Virus record (IMG/VR): IMGVR_UViG_3300021405_000018
Location: 1-52,064 of that record
DNA from: a virus
DNA: 52,064 nucleotides
Reading direction: 5' to 3' (one strand)
Shown: in pieces, positions 20,134 through 38,409 of the stretch
Layout of the letters: every line of letters begins with the position of its first letter
Numbering within the stretch: the first letter of the stretch is position 1
The notes under the pieces: model-generated
Told to the model about the DNA's origin: nothing
Databases searched by the model: none
The model's input: the letters and a program-made list of their open reading frames with translations, nothing else
Position numbers and translations under genes: made by a program

Positions 20134-21292
20134 CCGTCTCGATCAACCCACTCCTCTTCAGGCCCTTGACTATCTCATCGAAGTCTCGCGGCTTGGGGAG
20201 GCTACCCCGGATGTAAGCGAACGCCTCTCCTATCTCTACACCCTGTACCCCATGCCGCGCAATGAAGTCAACCAGTCTGTCGGAAACGTTGCTTGTCTCC
20301 GTCTTCCCGATACGGTCAAAGATTGACAGAAGCGTGGACTCAAGGTTTGATACGTGGTGCTCAGCCGTTTGAAGGTCCTCTCTGCTGATAACGAGGGAGT
20401 CATCCCTCGCTGCAGAAAGAACCATTGCGAGCTTATGGAGGTGAGAAGCCTTGCGCGAGTAGAAGCCGCCAAGTCTAGAGTCGTCCTTCCCCTTGCCGTG
20501 GAGCGCACAATGTGCGTCGTACCAATCGATGCCCCACTGCACAGCATCAGGAGCAAGAGTGTACTCACCCTCAAGCCGTCCGATGGCATTGAGGTCGTCC
20601 AGCAAATACCGTTTGAGTGTGTTGTGCTCACGCCATTTCTCCTTTGAGATTTGCAGGCCAGGGTACATGATATTCTGGCGCTTCTCGTCCGCGTAGACCC
20701 ACATGATCCGGGAGACGAGGCCCCCCTCGATCATGTATGTGGGTATGTTGTCACTGATCCATGATGGGGTTGTGCAGCCGATGAGGTTGAGGAAGGGGTG
20801 TTCTACCTGCTCACTGCCATTCCCCTTCGTTGCCTTGTCGAGGGGGCCGCAGTCCCATAGGGTGGTGAGCATGTCCATCATCTGGCGGTCGTCAGTCGAT
20901 ATGAGGTTGCCGAGTTCGCCCGATTCGATGGTAAGGGAGTACGTCTCGACCGTGTTTCCGGGGGAATACTCCACCATCCTGACTGCTTTCTCGAAAGAAG
21001 ACACCAGCGCCTGCCATGTGGTGACGTTGGGTCCCATGTGGATATCGTCCACCTTCCGTAGGAGGCGCATTGCAAGACCCGCATTGGTCGATTTGGCGAT
21101 GACCCCCGGTGGTGCAACGAGGACCACGAACATGTTGGGGTACCACTGGAATGTAAGCTGATCAAACCACACCTTCCTCTGGAGTGCGCCTGCAATGGCA
21201 GAAACGCCTGACCAGAATAGAATGTGATCAGGCGCTTCACCTACATGCCCCAGTTCGATAAACCCCTGGAGCCAATTTGATAGTTTCCTCAT
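20069..21292 (-). CDS. DUF3987-type primase/helicase ATPase (407 aa)
   Basis: A longer frame starts with TTG at 21307; I choose ATG 21292, which overlaps the polymerase stop (ATGA) and has GGGGG upstream. The protein has a Walker A loop of the form APPGVIAKST near residue 60, the DUF3987 signature LTFQWYPNMFVVLVAPPG, and later LISTDDRQMMDMLTTLWDC and a C-terminal winged-helix-like part (LVDFIARHGVQGVEIGEAFAYI). The family accompanies phage primases and is thought to be the replicative helicase or primase-helicase. Last gene of the leftward operon. Confidence 0.75.
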   Translation of the reverse strand: MRKLSNWLQGFIELGHVGEAPDHILFWSGVSAIAGALQRKVWFDQLTFQWYPNMFVVLVAPPGVIAKSTNAGLAMRLLRKVDDIHMGPNVTTWQALVSSFEKAVRMVEYSPGNTVETYSLTIESGELGNLISTDDRQMMDMLTTLWDCGPLDKATKGNGSEQVEHPFLNLIGCTTPSWISDNIPTYMIEGGLVSRIMWVYADEKRQNIMYPGLQISKEKWREHNTLKRYLLDDLNAIGRLEGEYTLAPDAVQWGIDWYDAHCALHGKGKDDSRLGGFYSRKASHLHKLAMVLSAARDDSLVISREDLQTAEHHVSNLESTLLSIFDRIGKTETSNVSDRLVDFIARHGVQGVEIGEAFAYIRGSLPKPRDFDEIVKGLKRSGLIETVTVAAKVVLKKPAVKPDLANL

Positions 21293-22023
21293 TGACAATC
21301 CCCCCAACTCTTCTCACTCATTTTCAATCCAACGGGGATGACCAATGGTTCCGGGTAGGGGATGACGATGGTGGCTTCTCGCTTGACGGCTTCTGCGTAG
21401 TCCCCATCGCACTGAATGGGCCACTGCATAGTAAGGCTGTCGTGTACCTGCAACAGAATGTCCACCAGAGGTAGGTTATGGTCGATATTGACATATGCGT
21501 GATTGATGAGGATGCCTACTGTTGATTGGGGAACCCAGGCTACCATACGGTTAAGGATGTTACCCTCTATGCGTTCATAGAACTTCTTTTTGTACCCGAA
21601 AGCATTGGAGACAGTGCCTGTGCGTATGCAACGCTTAACGAACGCATCCTGCCAGCGCTTAATCTCGGGAAACATTTCAAAGTACCAATGCTGGATGCGC
21701 TCCACCTCCTTGACCAGTAGCCCACACTGCCCCGCAATCTCTGGTGCCTTACCCAGGTAGTTCGTAGCGTGGCATAGCTTCTTGAACGCATAGTAGCGCG
21801 GGTCCTCCGTACCATCAGAGCGCTTCTTCTGAATGCTGTTGTCATGGTAGTACTCTCGGGCCACCTGGAGGTATGGTTTTTTCCCCTCCCGGAATAAAGC
21901 CTTCATCCCTTTGCAGTCGCTCTCCCATGTCACTATCCGAAGGTCTGCGCTGTCCAGGTCCAGGTCGGCCATGACCATCCCCTCGTCCGGTATGAACATC
22001 GTACGGATATTGGGCATCGGCAT
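21289..22023 (-). CDS. DNA polymerase family A, polymerase (C-terminal) part of a split gene (244 aa)
   Basis: Contains all three family A polymerase motifs: motif A at 20-29 (DLDLDSADLR), motif B at 76-91 (R-x4-K-K-x6-NYLG) and motif C at 192-195 (QVHD). The ATG at 22023 has its own ribosome site (AGGAGAAGGCTATG), lying inside the HTH gene. The expected upstream part is encoded separately at 22234-23883. The two frames are in the same phase (stop to stop 945 nt), so about 70 codons of inserted sequence separate them. The products must associate to make an active enzyme, or the split is a defect. Confidence 0.85.
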   Translation of the reverse strand: MPMPNIRTMFIPDEGMVMADLDLDSADLRIVTWESDCKGMKALFREGKKPYLQVAREYYHDNSIQKKRSDGTEDPRYYAFKKLCHATNYLGKAPEIAGQCGLLVKEVERIQHWYFEMFPEIKRWQDAFVKRCIRTGTVSNAFGYKKKFYERIEGNILNRMVAWVPQSTVGILINHAYVNIDHNLPLVDILLQVHDSLTMQWPIQCDGDYAEAVKREATIVIPYPEPLVIPVGLKMSEKSWGDCQ

Positions 22024-22237
22024 AGCCTTCTCCTAGCATTAGGTAATCGAGGGTGACATCAAGGACACGGGCCAGTTCAAGGAGTGCCCAGTAGCCTGGG
22101 TGGACACCCATGTCCTCGTAGAGGTGCATCGATGTGGGATGCAGACGGGCTCGCTTGGCTAGGACATGGCGCAGGATTCCACGCTCCTCCCGTAGCCGTC
22201 GCAGGCGGGCACCAAAGGTTTCGAAGTCGTTGTTCAT
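21842..22237 (-). CDS. XRE-type HTH protein inserted within the DNA polymerase gene (131 aa frame)
   Basis: The ATG overlaps the stop of the polymerase N-part (ATGA). Residues 6-68 (FGARLRRLREERGILRHVLAKRA ... YEDMG ... LLELARVLDVTLDYLMLGE) are an XRE helix-turn-helix domain. The remaining 60 residues overlap the polymerase C-part in another frame and look like out-of-frame translation, so the natural protein may be meant to end near residue 72 but has no stop there. A second XRE protein lies at 35289-35519. Its position inside a split polymerase is unusual. Regulator of replication genes, or a mobile insertion, are both possible. Confidence 0.65.
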   Translation of the reverse strand: MNNDFETFGARLRRLREERGILRHVLAKRARLHPTSMHLYEDMGVHPGYWALLELARVLDVTLDYLMLGEGYADAQYPYDVHTGRGDGHGRPGPGQRRPSDSDMGERLQRDEGFIPGGEKTIPPGGPRVLP

Positions 22238-23883
22238 AGCTTTTCCCTTCCATCCGTGATGTTTTGCAGGTTCATTCCCGAGCCGAAGGCGTCTGCGCTA
22301 CTGGAGAACCTGAAAGTGATCGCCCCATTGATATTGTAGCTACAGTGGATACGTCCGTCGTATCCAATTGCAGTGGCCTTAAGTGCGTTCGAAGCGAGGG
22401 TTTCGCAAGACCTAAACGTTGCGATACGATCAGTGATAGGCCTAAGAAATACCTCTCGTTGTCCAATTTTCTCAAGCGCTTCATCGTCACAACAGAGTGC
22501 CTTTGTCTTCCGATTGCGGATAGGCGTTGCGCCCATCTCGTCGTAGAAGAAGGTACACATCTGCTTCGGACTCTTCGGGTTGAGCGGATAGCCGACCATC
22601 TCCGTAATCTCTGCTTCAAGCTGCTTCGCATGGTCCTTTAACTCCTTCAACATTGCTTGGCGTCGGGCGTTGTCAACACGAACCCCACGCGCCATCGTCC
22701 TAAGCACAGGACCAAAGAGAGATTGCTGGAAGTCGTGCGGTCCACGTAGACCCATTCTATCGACCACCGACTGTAGAACGGTATCGCATTCATACGTTCG
22801 AATACAGTCCTCACAGTTGTATGCCCAATACTTGTCTTCATCCTGGTCTGCTCCCTTGTCCCACTCCTTGCCGTCATCCTTCCAGTAGACGTACCACTCG
22901 CAATACATCGAGGCAATGAAGTCGAGGGACTTCTGCATGCCGGGGAAGCACGTGTGCTGGGCTACCATTGTATCTCGAACTTGACGCGGAACCCAGTGCC
23001 AGTGCCGAAGTATATACTGCGCATCGTAGATGAAATTTTGCCCAACGGTGAGTACGTTTGGGTGTGTGAGTAGCCGATACAGCAGCCAAACAATCTCAGA
23101 TTCATCGTCTTCGTTCCAGTATCCCTGCGGTCGTTCGACACAGAGAAATGGCATACAGAGTGCTTCATGATTACTCCACGCTATACCAAGGCACGCAATG
23201 TGCCCGGCTCGGGTTTCAATGTCACATGCCAGTTTCAGGGCTCCTGCTTCAGCCTTGTGATATAGCATGTCAAGACAGTCCCGCACCTGGGACATTGTAG
23301 GCCGTACCTGAAACGCCCATCCGGGTCGATGAGGAACCCGTTGCACACAAGAGGCCGCTCTCCGCAAGTCTTGCACGACAATCGGCTTAAGTGTCCATTG
23401 GCGCAAGACAGCGGCGGGGTGATAGGTAGGTAGCACGATCCCATGTTCCGTCTCCAGGGTACTGCCTCGCCACTTCGCAACGCTATCGAGACCAGTGAGT
23501 GCCCACAGGGCAGTGTTACCGAGGGCGATGATGACGGTCGGACGTACGGCTCTAATTTCAGCAAGTAGTAGAAGGTGCCCCCGAGCGACGTGAGGATGCA
23601 CAGGCCTGCCACGCACCATGACAAAGCCTCCTGCCAGTCCCGCATGCTGCTTCTCCTTCGTGGTGGGCATCCAGAGGTCCATCTTGTTGCCTGGGGGCCG
23701 CTCCCGACAGACGTTCGTGATCCGCACCGAGGCACGGGCGATGCCAACGGCGGAGAGCATCTGGTCCAGGAGTTGGCCGCTGTAGCCCACAAAGGGCTCA
23801 CCAAGGCGCTCCTCGTCCACGCCGGGGGCTTCACCCACTATCATGATGCGGGCGTCCATAGGGCCTATGCTACCGACTGTCAT
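22234..23883 (-). CDS. UDG-like domain fused to DNA polymerase family A exonuclease part (549 aa)
   Basis: Residues 10-165 resemble family 4-type uracil-DNA glycosylases: GEAPG at 17-21, G-x-P-F-V-G-x-S-G-x-L-L, TNVCRERPPGN, and YHPAAVLR at 154-161. The usual iron-sulfur cysteines are mostly missing, so it may be non-catalytic. Residues 215-370 hold a 3'-5' exonuclease: DIE at 221-223, GQNFIYDAQYIL, YNCEDCIRTYE. The fusion of a UDG-like domain to a phage DNA polymerase is known from SPO1. The frame stops at NLQNITDGREKL, exactly where family A enzymes continue to the palm motif A, which is encoded separately at 21289-22023. Confidence 0.85.
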   Translation of the reverse strand: MTVGSIGPMDARIMIVGEAPGVDEERLGEPFVGYSGQLLDQMLSAVGIARASVRITNVCRERPPGNKMDLWMPTTKEKQHAGLAGGFVMVRGRPVHPHVARGHLLLLAEIRAVRPTVIIALGNTALWALTGLDSVAKWRGSTLETEHGIVLPTYHPAAVLRQWTLKPIVVQDLRRAASCVQRVPHRPGWAFQVRPTMSQVRDCLDMLYHKAEAGALKLACDIETRAGHIACLGIAWSNHEALCMPFLCVERPQGYWNEDDESEIVWLLYRLLTHPNVLTVGQNFIYDAQYILRHWHWVPRQVRDTMVAQHTCFPGMQKSLDFIASMYCEWYVYWKDDGKEWDKGADQDEDKYWAYNCEDCIRTYECDTVLQSVVDRMGLRGPHDFQQSLFGPVLRTMARGVRVDNARRQAMLKELKDHAKQLEAEITEMVGYPLNPKSPKQMCTFFYDEMGATPIRNRKTKALCCDDEALEKIGQREVFLRPITDRIATFRSCETLASNALKATAIGYDGRIHCSYNINGAITFRFSSSADAFGSGMNLQNITDGREKL

Positions 23884-24710: not shown

Positions 24711-25132
24711 AGACCTCTCATAAATTCGTCGTAAGCCTTCTTGTCGATTGCCTCGGGCGCAAGTCCGGGGCGTGTCTCGGCAGGGTTCGCCACAGACGGC
24801 GGCGCAGGATCAGGCGGTCGCCGGATAGGCATACCATTGGGACCTGTCGTTGCGGTGTTGCGTGGATGGACAGCCCCCGCACTGATGCCCATACCTGCGG
24901 TGTTGGTGCGCATCGAGGCGAAGGGGTCGAGCTTCCCTCCAGCCTGATACCAGTTCATGTGGGGCGCTGCCTTACAGATGTCGCACTCAGTACAGTGGGA
25001 CATGTTAGTATCGAACATCCCACACTTGAAGCAAGCCCGCGTAGGCTTAACCCCAAGGGTGGACGCGGATATCTTAGCGTGGTACCCCAGCAGATCAGGG
25101 ATAGCCCTCATGTCGTGCGATGGATGGATCAT
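24707..25132 (-). CDS. Zinc-finger-like protein with shared C-terminal tail (141 aa)
   Basis: A Cys cluster in CFKCGMF...SHCTECDICKAAPHMN (residues 34-58) suggests one or two zinc sites. Residues 65-125 are Pro/Ala/Gly rich and disordered. The C-terminal PEAIDKKAYDEFMRGL matches the tails of 24083-24343 and 40742-41041. Overlaps the HAD gene by 4 nt. Confidence 0.6.
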   Translation of the reverse strand: MIHPSHDMRAIPDLLGYHAKISASTLGVKPTRACFKCGMFDTNMSHCTECDICKAAPHMNWYQAGGKLDPFASMRTNTAGMGISAGAVHPRNTATTGPNGMPIRRPPDPAPPSVANPAETRPGLAPEAIDKKAYDEFMRGL

Positions 25133-25581
25133 GTCGGCCTCTTAACTTGATTGACTAGAATCTTACCTTGTTCCCGCAGGACCTTGACCACGCGTGGATC
25201 GTCGTCGTAGGCGCAGATAACCCGATCTTGGGGAACCGGGGAGACGGTGAGCCACTTCAGCTTCGTAGTCTCCGTTGGTTCCGCCACTGCTACTGCCTTC
25301 GGCCTTAAGAGGAGCTGTTCGAACGGTACGCCGTTGTTCCTTAGCCATACTTCTGTCTGACTCCTGATACGTTCGGTCCTGCCCGACCAGCACCATACCT
25401 GCTTGCCGAAGGCCTTGAAGGCGCGGGCCACAAGGATCGTAGGCATGATGGGCTGGTCGTAGATGCACTGATCCTCAAACTCGTCCCAGTCCATCTCATC
25501 ACGCTTGAAGTAATGGAGTCGGTGGTCCATGTCGGCCAGGGTGTTGTCGATATCGAAGAGGACGATGTTGGGTTCCATCAT
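25129..25581 (-). CDS. HAD-type phosphatase (PNK/PseT phosphatase-like) (150 aa)
   Basis: The first motif FDIDNTLAD (D9 and D11) and motif II/III-like S67 (WSGRTER) and D-D late in YDDDPRVV give the pattern of HAD phosphatases, as in the C-terminal half of T4 polynucleotide kinase. The kinase half is absent. Possible role: removing 3'-phosphates from damaged nucleic acid, or nucleotide dephosphorylation. Confidence 0.7.
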   Translation of the reverse strand: MMEPNIVLFDIDNTLADMDHRLHYFKRDEMDWDEFEDQCIYDQPIMPTILVARAFKAFGKQVWCWSGRTERIRSQTEVWLRNNGVPFEQLLLRPKAVAVAEPTETTKLKWLTVSPVPQDRVICAYDDDPRVVKVLREQGKILVNQVKRPT

Positions 25582-33325: not shown

Positions 33326-33494
33326 CCTTACCCTCCATAAAGGCGTTGAAGGCGTCCTTGCACGATGGGCAGAGGTGCTTTTCCTCGTTCCACTCGAAGA
33401 GATAGAAGGATGTCCACCGTAGGCGAGCAAACCAGCCTACATCGGTCTTTTCACCACATCTATCACAGGTGTAGACCTGTCTCGTAGCCATCAT
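33291..33494 (-). CDS. Zinc-ribbon protein (67 aa)
   Basis: CDRCGEKTDV near the N-terminus and CPSCKDAF later form a Cys4 ribbon with the Trp/Tyr-rich strand RLRWTSFYLFEWNEEKHL between. The start overlaps the SPFH stop; another frame overlaps the next gene by 35 nt. Confidence 0.65.
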   Translation of the reverse strand: MMATRQVYTCDRCGEKTDVGWFARLRWTSFYLFEWNEEKHLCPSCKDAFNAFMEGKDVSNPAGKSST

Positions 33495-34339
33495 TTTCCC
33501 ACCTGAATCAGGGGGATAGCGCCCCCAAGCATGTATTGCGGATACTCCCCATTCCACTTCTCGACCTTCAGCTTCTCGATGATGGCAGGGTTGGCTTCAA
33601 GCGACTTGCCGAGGAGGTCGTTGGCCTGTGCCTGATTACGCGCAGCTTCGAGGTCGGCCTGACTCTGGATGACGCGCTTCTGCGAGTCGAACTGGGTCTG
33701 CTTCAGCTCGTTCTGTGCCTGGATGGACTTCTGCTGGGCACTCGCTGCTGCCTCGATGGCGTCGTTGTATTGCTGACTGAAGTCAAGGTTGAGCAGGGCT
33801 GTGCTGACGACGGTGATGCCGTAGGGCGCTAGGCGGGACTTGAGGTTATCGGTGATTTTCTGGTTCACCGAGTCCCGTTGGGTCACTAGCTGGTTCGTGT
33901 CGAACTGCGAGATGGTTGCCTTCGCAACGTCCACCATGGTCGGCTGGATGATCCGGTTGGCAGGGTCGTTGGAGAGGTCCCGATAGACACTGACGGCGGC
34001 AGCAGGGTTGACGCGGTAGTTCAGGGCGAAGTCCACCGTGACGACCTGTTTGTCGTTACTGGCTGCTGCCAGCTTCTCGTCCACACGGGCCGTACCTACA
34101 TAGACGGGGTGGACCGTATCGCGTACAGGCATGCGGAAGTGCAGTCCCGCAGGCATCACCTCGGGGGATAGGCCGTCGAAGTTCTGCACGACGCCCACAT
34201 AACCGGGCTCCACGGTGACGACCGGGCGCATCGAGTACCCCATGATGAGGAGGATCAGGACAATGATGGTCCCGACCGTCCACTTGACTACCTTCAGGAA
34301 TGATGCATCATCCCTACTCAACTCTTGCTGCTGTGCCAT
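33491..34339 (-). CDS. SPFH/prohibitin-like membrane protein (282 aa)
   Basis: One N-terminal membrane helix (residues 18-36, KWTVGTIIVLILLIMGYSMRP) then the SPFH domain: VEPGYVGVVQNFDGLSPEVM, PAGLHFRMPVRDTVHPVYVG, LNYRVNPAAAVSVYRDLSND, and a long coiled region (AIEAAASAQQKSIQAQNELKQ). This is the HflC/HflK/stomatin/prohibitin architecture, which builds rings around membrane proteases such as FtsH. Phage-encoded copies are uncommon; altering host proteolysis is a reasonable hypothesis. Confidence 0.8.
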   Translation of the reverse strand: MAQQQELSRDDASFLKVVKWTVGTIIVLILLIMGYSMRPVVTVEPGYVGVVQNFDGLSPEVMPAGLHFRMPVRDTVHPVYVGTARVDEKLAAASNDKQVVTVDFALNYRVNPAAAVSVYRDLSNDPANRIIQPTMVDVAKATISQFDTNQLVTQRDSVNQKITDNLKSRLAPYGITVVSTALLNLDFSQQYNDAIEAAASAQQKSIQAQNELKQTQFDSQKRVIQSQADLEAARNQAQANDLLGKSLEANPAIIEKLKVEKWNGEYPQYMLGGAIPLIQVGK

Positions 34340-35288: not shown

Positions 35289-35519
35289 TTAGTCCTCCAG
35301 ACCGACAAGGTAATCAATACTGCATTCAAGTACTATAGCCATCTTGATGATGGATCGCAAGCTGGGGTAAACCCCACGATTCTCGTAGGCCGTGATCTGG
35401 CATTGATGAAGGAAGCATTCGGCTGCAAACCTCTCAATGCCGTAACCACGGCGCATACGCTCGGCCTTGAGGCGGGTCCCAAGAGCCCCAAAGGCCTCCT
35501 TACGTTTATACGGCTTCAC
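35289..35519 (-). CDS. XRE-type HTH regulator (76 aa)
   Basis: GTG start fused with the Ro60 stop. AFGALGTRLKAERMRRGYGI, RFAAECFLHQCQITAYENRG, SLRSIIKMAIVLECSIDYLV matches the five-helix XRE fold, length typical of a stand-alone domain. Co-transcribed with Ro60 and the ncRNA cluster, so it may regulate that unit. Confidence 0.7.
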   Translation of the reverse strand: MKPYKRKEAFGALGTRLKAERMRRGYGIERFAAECFLHQCQITAYENRGVYPSLRSIIKMAIVLECSIDYLVGLED

Positions 35520-36964
35520 GCCTGGGCCTCCACAGCCCGGATGAAGTCAACTGAGGCTTCGCTGAAGCCATCAATATGCGTCCACTTTCCGTAACCAATC
35601 CCGTTCTTTGCGCTTGCCACGTTGATGAGGTATGCCCGACCACATCCAGGTTCCGCCAGCTTCGGGGATTGCGCATGATCAACAGCACAATCCTGCTCGT
35701 CCGTGACAACGACGATGCGGTCATACATTTCACGCTCGTTGATGAAGTCGAGCATGGGTTTGAGGAAGATGCCTCCTCCACCAAGCACTCTGTAGGACTC
35801 ATGGAATGCTGCAACGAGAGCCATTCCGTGCCTAGCTGGTACAGATTTCGTGGCGTGTGTTCGTGTGCGGTCGCTTCCTGCTGTTGCATAGACTACTGCC
35901 TCCTCACATTGTTCGCGCAGGATTGCGCACAGGGCGGCACCAGCGTCGATACGATTCAGGGTGGACTTGCTCGACAGCATGCTGCCCATCGAGCCCGACA
36001 CGTCGAGGACGATCAGCGTCCTCCCTTCAAGTTTCGGACCGTCCTGGAGTCCTTGCACCATCGCACCATCGAGCACAGCTTCGAACTGAGGGGCCTCGCG
36101 GGCTGCGCTGATGAAACGGAACGGGAGGACCTTGCTTGCGCCTTTACGGGCCTGGATGGCTTGTTCAATGAGGCCACGGTCCACCCCCAGTTCAGTCATC
36201 TTGCGCAGGTTCCGAAGGAGGGCCATATAGGGCAGCTTCCCCTCACGCAACATCACTTCGAATACATCTTTACTGCCACCTTCATCCCCCTTAGCTGCGC
36301 TAAGGCCCACTTCCCATGTCTCGGGCGTCTTGAGGGTGCGGTCAACGATGCGCCGATACAACTGTTCTTCAGGTGTAGTGCCCGCAGTGCTGCTCAACCG
36401 GTTACCAATGCCTTGCGCACGTTGATGCTTCGTGCCGTAGGCACCACTGACCGACTTCGGCTTCCCATGCACCATGAACAGAACGTCGCGCAGCTTGATA
36501 GGCGAGTCGGCCTTCTCCCATTTCGAGAACTGATACTCATCGAACTTGCGGAAGGCACGGGCAAGGCCGACCTTAACCTGCTTCGCAAGGGGACACTTAC
36601 CGTCCTTCCAGTAGATGGCCATGAATTCGGCTATCTCGTCGGGCCGTTGGATCACCCTAGCGAGGGTATCTCCAACCAGTTTGCCTCTCGCACATCGAGC
36701 AAGCGCCCGCACGAGCAGCAACGGTACGTGCCGAAGGTGTTGCTGTTCCCTTGCCTCAATGGCGAGTTGTGCAACAGTTGCAGGGTCGCATGCTGGCACC
36801 AGCTCTGCGATCCGACTAGCGATTGAGCCGCCTGATTCATACGCTTCGCCCTCCCAAAGCATGCACGACAGCACCGTGCGGCGTAGTTCTTCAATCGGGG
36901 TAAGGTGGAAGGCCTCTGCGCCGCCATGGGTACGAGGGCCTTCTGGATGGTTGGTACTGGACAT
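35516..36964 (-). CDS. rsr: Ro60/Rsr orthologue (TROVE + vWA) (482 aa)
   Basis: The first 300 residues form the HEAT-like TROVE ring (SCMLWEGEAYESGGSIASRI, LAIEAREQQHLRHVPLLLVR, PYMALLRNLRKMTELGVDRG, KVLPFRFISAAREAPQFEAV). Residues 313-482 are a vWA domain with DVSGS at 321-325 and a later D422. The TD usually seen after GG is replaced by GGGGIF at 395-400, so the metal site may be altered. Ro60 binds Y RNAs and misfolded RNAs and in bacteria works with PNPase. Directly upstream lies a 1-kb RNA cluster. Ribosome site AGGAG at about 36971-36975. Confidence 0.85.
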   Translation of the reverse strand: MSSTNHPEGPRTHGGAEAFHLTPIEELRRTVLSCMLWEGEAYESGGSIASRIAELVPACDPATVAQLAIEAREQQHLRHVPLLLVRALARCARGKLVGDTLARVIQRPDEIAEFMAIYWKDGKCPLAKQVKVGLARAFRKFDEYQFSKWEKADSPIKLRDVLFMVHGKPKSVSGAYGTKHQRAQGIGNRLSSTAGTTPEEQLYRRIVDRTLKTPETWEVGLSAAKGDEGGSKDVFEVMLREGKLPYMALLRNLRKMTELGVDRGLIEQAIQARKGASKVLPFRFISAAREAPQFEAVLDGAMVQGLQDGPKLEGRTLIVLDVSGSMGSMLSSKSTLNRIDAGAALCAILREQCEEAVVYATAGSDRTRTHATKSVPARHGMALVAAFHESYRVLGGGGIFLKPMLDFINEREMYDRIVVVTDEQDCAVDHAQSPKLAEPGCGRAYLINVASAKNGIGYGKWTHIDGFSEASVDFIRAVEAQA

Positions 36965-36984
36965 TACTGGTACTCCTAACTAAC

Positions 36985-37111
36985 TTCAAGCCCCCGAAGG
37001 GGAGGGAACAGACATACAGGGACAAGACCTCATAAGAGGCCCCAGGATTCGAACCTGAACGCACCCGAAGGTGAGTATCAACCGATGTAACCCTGTACTA
37101 CACCACTTAAA
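36985..37111 (-). ncRNA. Y-RNA-like stem-loop with tRNA-mimic, unit 1 (next to rsr)
   Basis: Minus strand: lower stem TTTAAG/CTTGAA (37106-37111 with 36985-36990), upper stem TACAGGG/CCCTGTA (37091-37097 with 37015-37021). Inside, in order: a UUCG-capped hairpin (37062-37073), a canonical T-arm TCAGG-TTCGAAT-CCTGG (37042-37058), and directly next a 6-bp hairpin GGCCTC-TTAT-GAGGTC (37026-37041) that looks like an acceptor stem closed by a loop. No clear D-arm. A further CCCC-TTCG-GGGG hairpin sits in the 3' internal loop. Ends about 20 nt before the rsr ATG. Confidence 0.5.
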
Positions 37112-37234
37112 CTTGACTGGCGACGCCTTACGGGCGTCAATCGAGCGAAGATTTACCGTTTGCTTGAGTCTACGCTGTTGACCCACTCGACACGTAACGG
37201 CTTGTGGCTAGGGTATCGGCTTCCCCTTTGCAAC
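37112..37234 (-). other. Spacer inside the ncRNA cluster
   Basis: Holds a perfect 6-bp hairpin GACGCC-CGTAA-GGCGTC (minus strand) at about 37122-37138 and no convincing ORF or tRNA. It lies between the first two RNA units; the rest is unassigned. Confidence 0.4.
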
Positions 37235-37359
37235 TCTGCGCCCCGACACAAGGGCCTACCGAGAGTACGACGGTACTGCTGCAAATCTTTGGCGGGAACA
37301 AACGAGGACGGAAGGATTTCGACCTAAACGAAGTAACCGTACTCTTCACCACGCAAACC
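37235..37359 (-). ncRNA. Y-RNA-like stem-loop, unit 2
   Basis: Minus strand shares the 5' block GTTTGCGTGxTGAAGA with unit 3. Upper stem GAGTACG/CGTACTC (37338-37344 with 37263-37269) is perfect. The lower stem is weak (TGCG/CGCA near 37235-37240). Inside is an anticodon-like arm TTCG-TTTAGGT-CGAA (37318-37332) but no canonical T-loop. Boundaries are uncertain. Confidence 0.35.
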
Positions 37360-37461
37360 TTGGCCTCATTGCGGGGAGGTCCATCCTCGTAAGACAAAAA
37401 GGAGTCACCAGGGCAGAGAGTTGGGGAAGACCTGCCACTGAGTCGTGTGACTCCGTAAAAC
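37360..37461 (-). other. Spacer inside the ncRNA cluster
   Basis: Contains a GGAGTCAC...GTGACTCC inverted repeat (37400-37407 with 37446-37453) around a loop of about 38 nt, on either strand, and no tRNA or convincing ORF. Possibly another, simpler stem-loop unit. Confidence 0.35.
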
Positions 37462-37530
37462 TGGCGGGACCCCACGGAATTGAACCGGGGTAGGAGATTC
37501 GCGAAAATGCTCCTAGTGCCAACACGTCCC
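37462..37530 (-). ncRNA. tRNA-like element with encoded CCA
   Basis: Minus strand: GGGAC/GTCCC acceptor (5 bp, then mismatch), T-arm CCCGG-TTCAATT-CCGTG with one mismatch and canonical T-loop, discriminator G, then CCA (37462-37464). The middle is a 6-bp hairpin TAGGAG/CTCCTA with a 13-nt loop and a mini D-like GTGTTGGCAC. No clear anticodon. It is therefore not an ordinary tRNA; it may be a degenerate tRNA or part of the Y-like set. Overlaps the 3' end of unit 3 by 2 nt. Confidence 0.4.
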
Positions 37531-37667
37531 AGTGTTGCGGCAACAAGCGATACGACGAACGTAAGTGCTCTAACCAACTGAGCTACATCCTTTCGGATGA
37601 CGGGACTCGAACCCGCGACCTCTCGCTTAGCAGGCGAAGTATGTCGTATCTTCAGCACGCAAACTGG
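37529..37667 (-). ncRNA. Y-RNA-like RNA with permuted tRNA mimic, unit 3 (best example)
   Basis: Minus strand, 5' to 3': lower stem CCAGTTTGCG (37658-37667) pairs with CGCAAcACTGG (37529-37539, one bulged C); internal loop TGCTGAA opposite GCTTGTTGC; upper stem GATACGAC/GTCGTATC (37643-37650 with 37549-37556). Inside: anticodon-like arm TCGC-CTGCTAA-GCGA (37623-37637), T-arm GCGGG-TTCGAGT-CCCGT (37600-37616), hairpin CATCC-GAAA-GGATG (37586-37599) and D-arm GCTC-AGTTGGTTA-GAGC (37567-37583). T-arm before D-arm with a closed acceptor is the order of a circularly permuted tRNA, as described for YrlA-type Y RNAs. Confidence 0.6.
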
Positions 37668-37764
37668 TTGGGGCAACAAGCAAGACGGCAGACAGTCGTA
37701 GCCAGGACTAGCCTGACATACGCCCGAATGGTGAGCGATGTAAGCCATCTCTTCAGCACCCAAA
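37668..37764 (-). ncRNA. Y-RNA-like stem-loop, unit 4
   Basis: Immediately 5' of unit 3 on the minus strand. Lower stem TTGGG/CCCAA (37759-37763 with 37668-37672), same internal loop TGCTGAA opposite GCTTGTTGC, upper stem GAGATGGC/GCCGTCTT (37744-37751 with 37682-37689). Compared with unit 3 the lower stem differs by a compensatory C-G to G-C change (TTGCG/CGCAA there). Inside: a long hairpin near 37716-37741 and a T-stem-like TCAGG-CTAGT-CCTGG without the T-loop consensus. Confidence 0.5.
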
Positions 37765-37845
37765 GGTGCAGGGTCTTTGCACGAGCCCACATTAGCACAT
37801 CCCCGCGAGGTCGGATGCCTTGTGGTACAAAGGCCCTGCCCTTTG
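37761..37845 (-). ncRNA. Stem-loop with acceptor-like hairpin, unit 5
   Basis: Minus strand: CAAAGGGCAGGG (37834-37845) pairs with CCCTGCaCCTTTG (37761-37773), 12 bp with one bulge. Inside: GCCTT-TGTACCAC-AAGGC next to CATCC-(10 nt)-GGATG (37798-37817), the same acceptor sequence as unit 3. Its 3' end overlaps unit 4's 5' end by 3-4 nt, so the exact borders are uncertain. Confidence 0.35.
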
Positions 37846-37870
37846 AAGGCTGGGGACCCTTCCTGTTATC

Positions 37871-37922
37871 GAGTGGAAGGAACAAGCATCTCGCAAGCGC
37901 CGAGTGTAGGTGTCATCCACTC
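37871..37922 (-). ncRNA. Small stem-loop, unit 6
   Basis: Minus strand GAGTGGA/TCCACTC (37916-37922 with 37871-37877), an inner arm CTCG-GCGCTTG-CGAG (37890-37904), and the block GCTTGTTCC in the 3' internal loop, like the GCTTGTTGC of units 3 and 4. Possibly a shortened member of the set. Confidence 0.3.
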
Positions 37923-37934
37923 AGGCTTGAAGGG

Positions 37935-38005
37935 TGGGGCAACGGTTCGTTCCACTGGCCTGTTAGCGGGACGGGGGTACCATAGCAGTCAGCAGCGTTG
38001 CCCCA
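37935..38005 (-). ncRNA. Stem-loop, unit 7 (most upstream)
   Basis: Perfect 10-bp stem TGGGGCAACG/CGTTGCCCCA (37996-38005 with 37935-37944) around about 51 nt. A second pairing CATAGC/GCTATG nearby would make a pseudoknot or an alternative fold. Lies 6 nt from the end of the gene at 38011-38409. Confidence 0.3.
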
Positions 38006-38010
38006 TAAAG

Positions 38011-38409
38011 CTATGCTGCGTCCGCGTCATGTTCCGGGTAGTTCAGTACGATGGGATGCGCATTGAGATACTGCTCAATCGCCCGCGTCACCACTTCCCC
38101 AAGCACTCCAGTCCGAATGACCCCACCTCCACGATGCAACAGATACGACTGTAGCCTGTCATGGACTGCTTCGTCAACCGAAACATGAATGTACTTCCTC
38201 CCCTTCGCTGCTGGGTGCCCCATGTGTAACTCCCTTTGTGCCTCTAGCACGTTGATGCGACAGTGCAGTCGCGTAAACTCTTTCCAGTGATCGGAGACGA
38301 CATCCCTTGATGGACATGTCCGAACACTGTACCCACTTGCCGCCTTCAGGGCTAGGTCCATCGCTGCCTTGAGTGCGACCAGCTCCTCCGGCGACACGTT
38401 AAGCAGCAT
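38011..38409 (-). CDS. Possible ribbon-helix-helix protein (132 aa)
   Basis: ATG 38409 with GAGGAG upstream at 10 nt. Residues 1-60 are helical. The C-terminal 60 (RKYIHVSVDEAVHDRLQSYL ... LGEVVTRAIEQYL) look like a strand-helix-helix as in RHH DNA-binding proteins. Immediately upstream of the RNA cluster. Confidence 0.5.
   Translation of the reverse strand: MLLNVSPEELVALKAAMDLALKAASGYSVRTCPSRDVVSDHWKEFTRLHCRINVLEAQRELHMGHPAAKGRKYIHVSVDEAVHDRLQSYLLHRGGGVIRTGVLGEVVTRAIEQYLNAHPIVLNYPEHDADAA

Follow-up and report, generated by a model that had tools for sequence, protein, structure and literature searches.

The virus record IMGVR_UViG_3300021405_000018 (the window; 52,064 bases, searched over its whole length unless a narrower stretch is named) encodes Ro60, a ring-shaped RNA-binding protein familiar mainly as a target of human autoimmunity, and four RNA units precede its gene on the same strand. 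From their sequences, units 3 and 4 very probably belong to a tandem array in which four Y RNAs partner the virus's own Ro60. We judge the units to be a variant of the bacterial Y RNAs, part of a large family common to phages and bacteria. As in bacterial Y RNAs, they neighbour a Ro60 gene and have a stem formed from the RNA's two ends together with a conserved core. Unit 3 also has the three-arm permuted head of the Rfam YrlA family, from which its score (below 69 bits) and its anticodon arm set it apart. The window encodes phage portal and terminase genes, and the virus infects bacteria.

The units lie at 37764-37003 on the minus strand in the order 4, 3, 2, 1 and point into the Ro60 frame (Table 1). 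They are part of a region of about 1 kb (38010-36965, minus strand) that holds no convincing gene. The downstream protein matches Pfam TROVE (PF05731; 56.4 bits against a cut-off of 23, E 4e-15) and PHROG 850, an RNA-binding protein (E 3.5e-39), and reaches 26.4 bits with the vWA_Ro60 profile, just under its cut-off of 27.7. The DxSxS metal site (D321, S323, S325) is invariant in 25 sequences. For an AlphaFold model (mean predicted local distance difference test score 82), Foldseek's best matches are a crystallised TROVE protein, Ro60 from the Thermus phage phiLo and a Ro autoantigen bound to RNAs (9kop, 9l5y, 1yvp), the last with template modelling scores of 0.64-0.70. In this model the protein has the overall Ro60 fold, with helical repeats and a vWA domain. 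Neither this gene nor the tRNA-like head of unit 3 was mentioned in an earlier first-pass annotation of this DNA.

Covariation of the Y stem and core

The first-pass annotation had claimed a paired change in the lower stem, TTGCG/CGCAA in unit 3 against TTGGG/CCCAA in unit 4. On the minus strand the letters are as claimed: TTTGGG (37764-37759) and CCCAAC (37672-37667) form the lower stem of unit 4, TTTGCG (37663-37658) and CGCAAC (37539-37534) that of unit 3, and the two differ by one double change. A shared internal loop, TGCTGAA opposite GCTTGTTGC, had also been described. Both units do hold these strands (37758-37752 and 37681-37673, minus strand, in unit 4), and part of the supposed loop is paired: in unconstrained minimum-energy folds of units 3 and 4 the GC of TGCTGAA, after a bulged U, pairs with the last GC of GCTTGTTGC. 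The units do not adjoin at 37667/37668 as had been thought, since the model borders (37764-37667 and 37663-37534) leave three bases between them.

One double change between two paralogues alone is weak evidence, and the test on homologues, proposed alongside it, carries the proof. A pattern for the 5' strand, without protein information, was run over IMG/VR and gave at least 120 viral loci with 155 pattern sites; counts from this search, here and below, are among the matches listed. Partners were picked by upper stem and 3' core for 92 sites, the 63 sites without a partner being dropped, and 78 units were left after near-copies had been removed. The lower stem played no part in this choice. 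Lower-stem pairs 1-6 are formed in cis in 97, 100, 97, 90, 82 and 71% of the 78 units, against 97, 40, 43, 42, 43 and 41% with shuffled partners. Position 1 is a near-invariant G-C and uninformative, all four Watson-Crick pairs occur at positions 2-6, and pairing past position 6 fades to 45-58%. Mean lower-stem pairing is 0.895 against 0.573 for the best shuffle, and none of 1000 shuffles comes near.

The core changes in the same manner. In the 5' core the base at position 3 faces the penultimate base of the 3' core, and across 112 distinct units the two form G-C in 108 cases, C-G in four and a mismatch in none; both letters were left free, and the units were selected by stem pairing, not by the core pair. 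The four C-G units are units 3 and 4 of the window and one in each of two other loci (L087 and L029). This covarying core pair means that the supposed internal loop holds a second compensatory change.

In 18 long viral units, none of them from the window, 97.6% of 615 cells are paired and 25 of 35 pairs have changed on both sides, while slid-partner controls are at most 50% paired. RNAalifold, unprompted, returns the same structure for these units save one acceptor pair. The 18 were picked for good pairing of the Y stem and anticodon arm, which leaves the T, acceptor and D helices as the only ones free of selection there. Covariation was also seen in 43 bacterial units; these were fitted to the model, so the result leans that way.

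A covariance model built from the 18 units (R1) finds unit 3 in the whole window at 116.6 bits (E 7.4e-23), unit 2 at 37.9 bits (E 2.8e-6) and unit 1 at 31.0 bits (E 7.8e-5). With filters off over a 1.2-kb stretch, unit 4 scores 30.2 bits (E 2.6e-6), and the next best places in the remainder of that stretch stay below 5 bits. A strict Python unit finder overlooked unit 1, together with many units whose 3' cores vary, and the covariance model was used instead. The double change could in principle be a coincidence between two unrelated hairpins, given how little a lone double change between two copies can prove, but covariation in homologues and the detection of all four units by R1 refute this explanation, to which we give practically no weight. 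Selection on RNA structure, which the first-pass annotation had read from the paired change, is borne out by covariation in viral homologues, and we regard it as supported by the sequences compared. A natural lower-stem swap like the change between units 3 and 4 is also found at L001:3840-3978, where two successive short units have identical upper stems and different lower stems, both mostly paired.

The core is closely linked to Ro60. Ro60 is present in 98 of the 120 viral loci with the 5' core, on the same strand in 96, and in 64 of the 75 loci with at least 2500 nucleotides downstream. The Ro60 frame starts between 150 nucleotides before and 1000 nucleotides after the core in 91 of the 120. 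Because the pattern holds no protein information, this linkage is strong independent evidence. A loose resemblance of the core to the Ro-binding helix of animal Y RNAs had been suggested; with Ro60 as the next gene downstream and in 98 of the 120 loci listed, the resemblance is far better than loose.

For comparison, Ro60 was matched in 82 of 50,697 phage records overall, and also in four IMG/VR contigs. Upstream of several phage Ro60 genes lie rows of hairpin units built to a common plan: the lower-stem and upper-stem strands flank UGGYGWA, UUACUUC leads into the head, and beyond the head the upper-stem and lower-stem strands return with GYYUGUUCC between them. Of the Ro60 loci scanned with R1, 11 of 16 from phages and 76 of 80 from bacteria have matches (E up to 0.001); the 238 matches in these 96 loci are all on the Ro60 strand, and a single locus has at most seven, the number seen in Caulobacter phage CcrColossus. 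No R1 match at E 0.001 occurs in five phage loci with more distant Ro60 (L012, L014-L017), and the array is therefore not universal.

Table 1. Positions of the RNA units, their parts and the Ro60 gene in the window.
Feature	Position	Strand	Description
Y RNA unit 4	37667..37764	-	lower stem, core and upper stem of 8 bp; no T loop recognisable in the head
Y RNA unit 3	37534..37663	-	long class; permuted four-arm tRNA-like head
Y RNA unit 2	37289..37357	-	short class; head is a small hairpin, UUCG-UUUAGGU-CGAA (seen in predicted fold)
Y RNA unit 1	37003..37107	-	head with T arm and GGCCUC/GAGGUC hairpin (predicted fold); lower stem weak
Unit 3 core, 5' strand TGCTGAA	37651..37657	-	GC after bulged T pairs with 3' core
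Unit 3 core, 3' strand GCTTGTTGC	37540..37548	-	
Unit 3 anticodon arm UUCGC-CUGCUAA-GCGAG	37622..37638	-	loop with GCU, U33, A37, A38
Unit 3 T arm	37600..37616	-	Rfam YrlA match and R1 model
Unit 3 acceptor stem CAUCC-GAAA-GGAUG	37586..37599	-	closed by tetraloop; R1 model and predicted fold
Unit 3 D arm	37567..37583	-	Rfam YrlA match and R1 model
Ro60/TROVE protein, 482 aa	35516..36964	-	same strand; first gene downstream of the units

The tRNA-like heads

The head of unit 3 runs in the order anticodon arm, T arm, acceptor strand, GAAA, acceptor strand, D arm. It is a circularly permuted tRNA, with the ends joined and the Y stem inserted between the D and anticodon arms. At a permissive Rfam threshold unit 3 is labelled YrlA (43.5 bits against the gathering score of 69), and units 1, 2 and 4 have no YrlA match up to E 5. 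Up to that E value only YrlA and tRNA were matched in 36900-38100, with no animal Y RNA family, and at the gathering threshold Rfam gave no match in the window.

The anticodon arm occurs beyond this virus. Across 48 anchored long viral units its two inner stem pairs are formed in 69% and 69%, against 42% and 49% with shuffled partners, and none of 2000 shuffles reaches the observed sum. A strict test for the arm is passed by 20 of the 48, and all 20 have U33, A38 and a purine at position 37, none of which the test requires. The larger set of heads, from bacteria and viruses, holds 181 long units, 179 of them anchored; 71 of the 179 pass the strict test, or 62 distinct arms once near-copies are removed. 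These 62 loops have U33 in 57 cases, and their bases at positions 36 and 37 are coupled as U36-A37 (32/34), G36-G37 (13/14) and C36-A37 (9/9). These couplings are the ones known from real tRNAs and from the enzymes responsible for t6A37 and m1G37. By these measures the anticodon loops of the heads obey tRNA rules. A bias to U36, which would read ANN codons, was seen in 26 of the 36 loops first collected and in 34 of the 62; relatedness inflates it, and we make no claim from it.

The T loop is present in 173 of the 181 long units. Most heads have an acceptor end sealed as a hairpin, capped most often by GCAA (30), GAAA (13), GUAA (11) or UUCG (11), and CCA stands near the acceptor strand in 15 of the 181. 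In unit 3 the acceptor end is closed by GAAA, which sets it apart from permuted tRNA genes that mature into tRNA, with their encoded CCA and an acceptor end that opens. Judged by its letters, a head with a closed acceptor cannot be charged in the ordinary way. Short units, with small-hairpin heads, are about as common as long ones by length counts. Some hairpin of at least three pairs starts from UUC in 39 of 49 short units, and a hairpin of four pairs with a loop of 6-8 bases occurs in 13 of 49 (shuffled mean 3.5). As only 13 of 49 have the four-pair hairpin and U33 is found in only 14 of 19 seven-base loops, an anticodon arm is not claimed for the short class.

Some algae and archaea make working tRNAs by rejoining permuted ones, and the units might likewise be permuted tRNA genes, or the decayed leftovers of tRNA genes. 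The tRNA loop rules kept by the heads fit this idea, as do GenBank entries in which pieces of such units are labelled tRNA-Thr, tRNA-Ser and tRNA-Gln. Matches in bacteria suggest how a permuted head could have arisen: R1 finds 18 matches in five whole bacterial genomes, of which ten are full-length and lie on contigs with the Ro60 locus, and the other eight are partial, lie away from Ro60 and cover mainly the head. These eight are probably tRNA genes lying side by side, which resemble the head where they meet. Against such an identity, the heads vary whereas the Y stem and core show conservation and covariation; moreover the acceptor is shut, in most cases by a tetraloop, and CCA is near it in only 15 of 181 long units. 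The covarying Y stem and core and the closed acceptor end largely refute decayed or rejoined tRNAs, an explanation that we consider very improbable.

Three GenBank tRNAs that overlap Y RNA units look misannotated, namely tRNA-Thr of Xanthomonas phage 10KY502B (L006:3292-3359), tRNA-Gln of CcrColossus (L009:2655-2722) and tRNA-Ser of Gurke (L007:3296-3370). Annotation stands to gain from recognising these RNAs, since pieces of them are currently deposited as tRNAs. In the window ARAGORN predicts a tRNA-Tyr and nothing else. Between units 3 and 2 (37459-37532, minus strand) lies another tRNA-like fold with a 5-bp acceptor stem, a T arm and a 3' CCA; it has no D arm, a long hairpin where the anticodon arm would be expected, and no ARAGORN or Rfam match. 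Upstream of unit 4 (37765-38010, minus strand) there are three more long hairpins without the Y core, which score below 5 bits with R1.

Possible roles of the array

By analogy with published Y RNAs, we infer that Ro60 binds the units. Each transcript would fold independently, Ro60 would grip the lower stem and core (UG[GC]YGWA opposite GYYUGUU[CG]C), and the head would project outward from the Ro60 particle. There it may serve as a tRNA decoy, offering enzymes that bind tRNA, and chiefly the host's anticodon-loop nucleases, a target that could be neither charged nor used in translation. One paper has suggested that the tRNA-like domain of YrlA might inhibit an anticodon nuclease (PMC7790460).

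The RNAs could instead fasten the viral Ro60 to PNPase or another exonuclease, with the head as the docking part, and so bring about breakdown of structured RNA from host or virus. This tether would compete with the decoy role, not with the identity of the units as Y RNAs. In Deinococcus the Y RNA joins Ro60 and PNPase, and PNPase is said to be bound by the YrlA head as well (PMC8394870; see also PMC8058203); the Ro60 fold and the same-strand linkage also fit. A docking part is harder to reconcile with heads that vary widely within one array and with short units, carrying a small hairpin, that are about as common as long ones; PNPase, for which no search was made in the virus, would moreover have to be the host's. 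The tether is a possibility that we hold with low confidence. The decoy is also held with low confidence and is put slightly ahead of it, because the extra anticodon arm keeps the loop rules while its identity varies.

Several observations weigh against Y RNAs with decoy heads. No promoter or terminator pattern above the shuffled level was found, and unit 4 is not listed by R1 with default filters over the 52 kb. In Salmonella, YrlA fragments were not detected, so YrlA was not cut by the nuclease there (PMC7790460). The heads are unlike each other, unit 4 having no T loop and unit 2 a small hairpin only, and the strict anticodon-arm test is passed by no more than 71 of the 179 anchored long units; a whole-tRNA decoy therefore cannot be the job of every unit. 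Position and strand, with the Ro60 start from 150 nucleotides before to 1000 nucleotides after the core in 91 of the 120 loci listed, would also suit structured elements of a 5' leader on the Ro60 mRNA, bound by Ro60 to adjust its own synthesis. Such leader control is improbable in our view: up to seven model matches stand before one gene, a few Ro60 genes among the matches listed precede the core instead of following it, and published bacterial Y RNAs are separate RNAs (PMC8394870).

If the heads are decoys, the idea can be carried further, to viruses and bacteria that furnish Ro60 particles with unlike, uncharged mimics of whole tRNAs as multiple baits for anticodon-loop nucleases. The four-arm head would then be an unrecognised class of Y RNA. 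We think this rather doubtful. Were it true, the loop of each mimic would keep the tRNA modification signatures U36-A37 and G36-G37. Y RNAs and Ro60 range from phages to people. Here many natural variants come in arrays of up to seven model matches per locus, with core and stem fixed and heads that vary, and the anticodon arm provides a concrete, testable connection with anticodon nucleases and with enzymes that modify tRNA.

Elsewhere in the window, a PNKP-type HAD phosphatase (25129-25581, minus strand; Pfam E 8.5e-13) possibly acts in RNA end repair, and in other phages PNKP-type phosphatases are part of RNA repair. Lying 10 kb from the array, it proves nothing about the RNA units. RtcB was not found in the window, and a search for T4 RNA ligase 1 gave no match anywhere, its controls being equally blank, which makes it uninformative. 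DNA polymerase A is split over two frames (21289-23883, minus strand), the first fused to a uracil-DNA glycosylase domain. An SPFH/Band 7 gene (33491-34339, minus strand) is near Ro60; crAss001 has an SPFH gene too, about 2 kb from its own Ro60. A nucleotide search of INPHARED with 35516-38020 gave no match.

In other Ro60 loci, the genes after Ro60 at 7 bacterial loci (10 proteins scanned) include no shared RNA-repair gene. A permuted tmRNA (RF04321) lies downstream of Ro60 in two Brevundimonas jumbo phages (L007:6872-7217 and L008:7252-7507). A viral contig rich in tRNAs has a match to bacterial-type RNase P RNA (L004:8994-9377) at 55 bits, where the gathering score is 100.

Relation to known Ro60 systems

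Phage Ro60 and phage Y RNAs have already been published (PMC7824862, PMC7765460, PMC12282133). Neither arrays of Y RNAs before a phage Ro60 nor an anticodon arm in a Y RNA was described in the accessible text of the literature searched. The main bacterial Y RNA papers lie outside that literature, and therefore we do not claim to be the first to see either.

The closest known RNA is YrlA (Rfam RF02553; Salmonella structure 6CU1), which shares with the units the Ro60 neighbour and a long stem from the RNA's two ends, and with unit 3 alone in this window the permuted tRNA-like head with T, acceptor and D arms. The YrlA head has been described as a mimic of the D, T and acceptor arms (PMC8394870) and its structure as superposing on tRNA through circular permutation (PMC11472068). 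Unit 3 differs in having a whole extra anticodon arm, missing from the Rfam consensus, between Y stem and T arm, and in its score below the gathering level. YrlA labels elsewhere are below that score too, in 16 of 16 cases in 8 phage loci and 8 of 8 in 8 bacterial loci.

The Deinococcus machine of Ro60, Y RNA and PNPase has its first two components in common with the virus; the viral locus differs from it in having several unlike Y RNAs per Ro60. Thermus phage phiLo (PDB 9l5y, 2025) likewise has a phage Ro60, which gave the second and third best fold matches, but its identity to the window protein is 22-23%, and its locus (L016, 8.3 kb) has no YrlA match. In Listeria phage CKA15, putative Y RNAs are highly transcribed co-directional stretches with an Rsr-like gene at most 2 kb downstream (PMC12282133). 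The accessible text gives Y RNA as one of several options there, with no structure or covariation.

The likeness extends to animals, as far as the core is concerned. We know of no tRNA-like head in animal Y RNAs. Their Ro-binding helix has CGA opposite CUU, and the units described here have CGAA or UGAA opposite CUUG.
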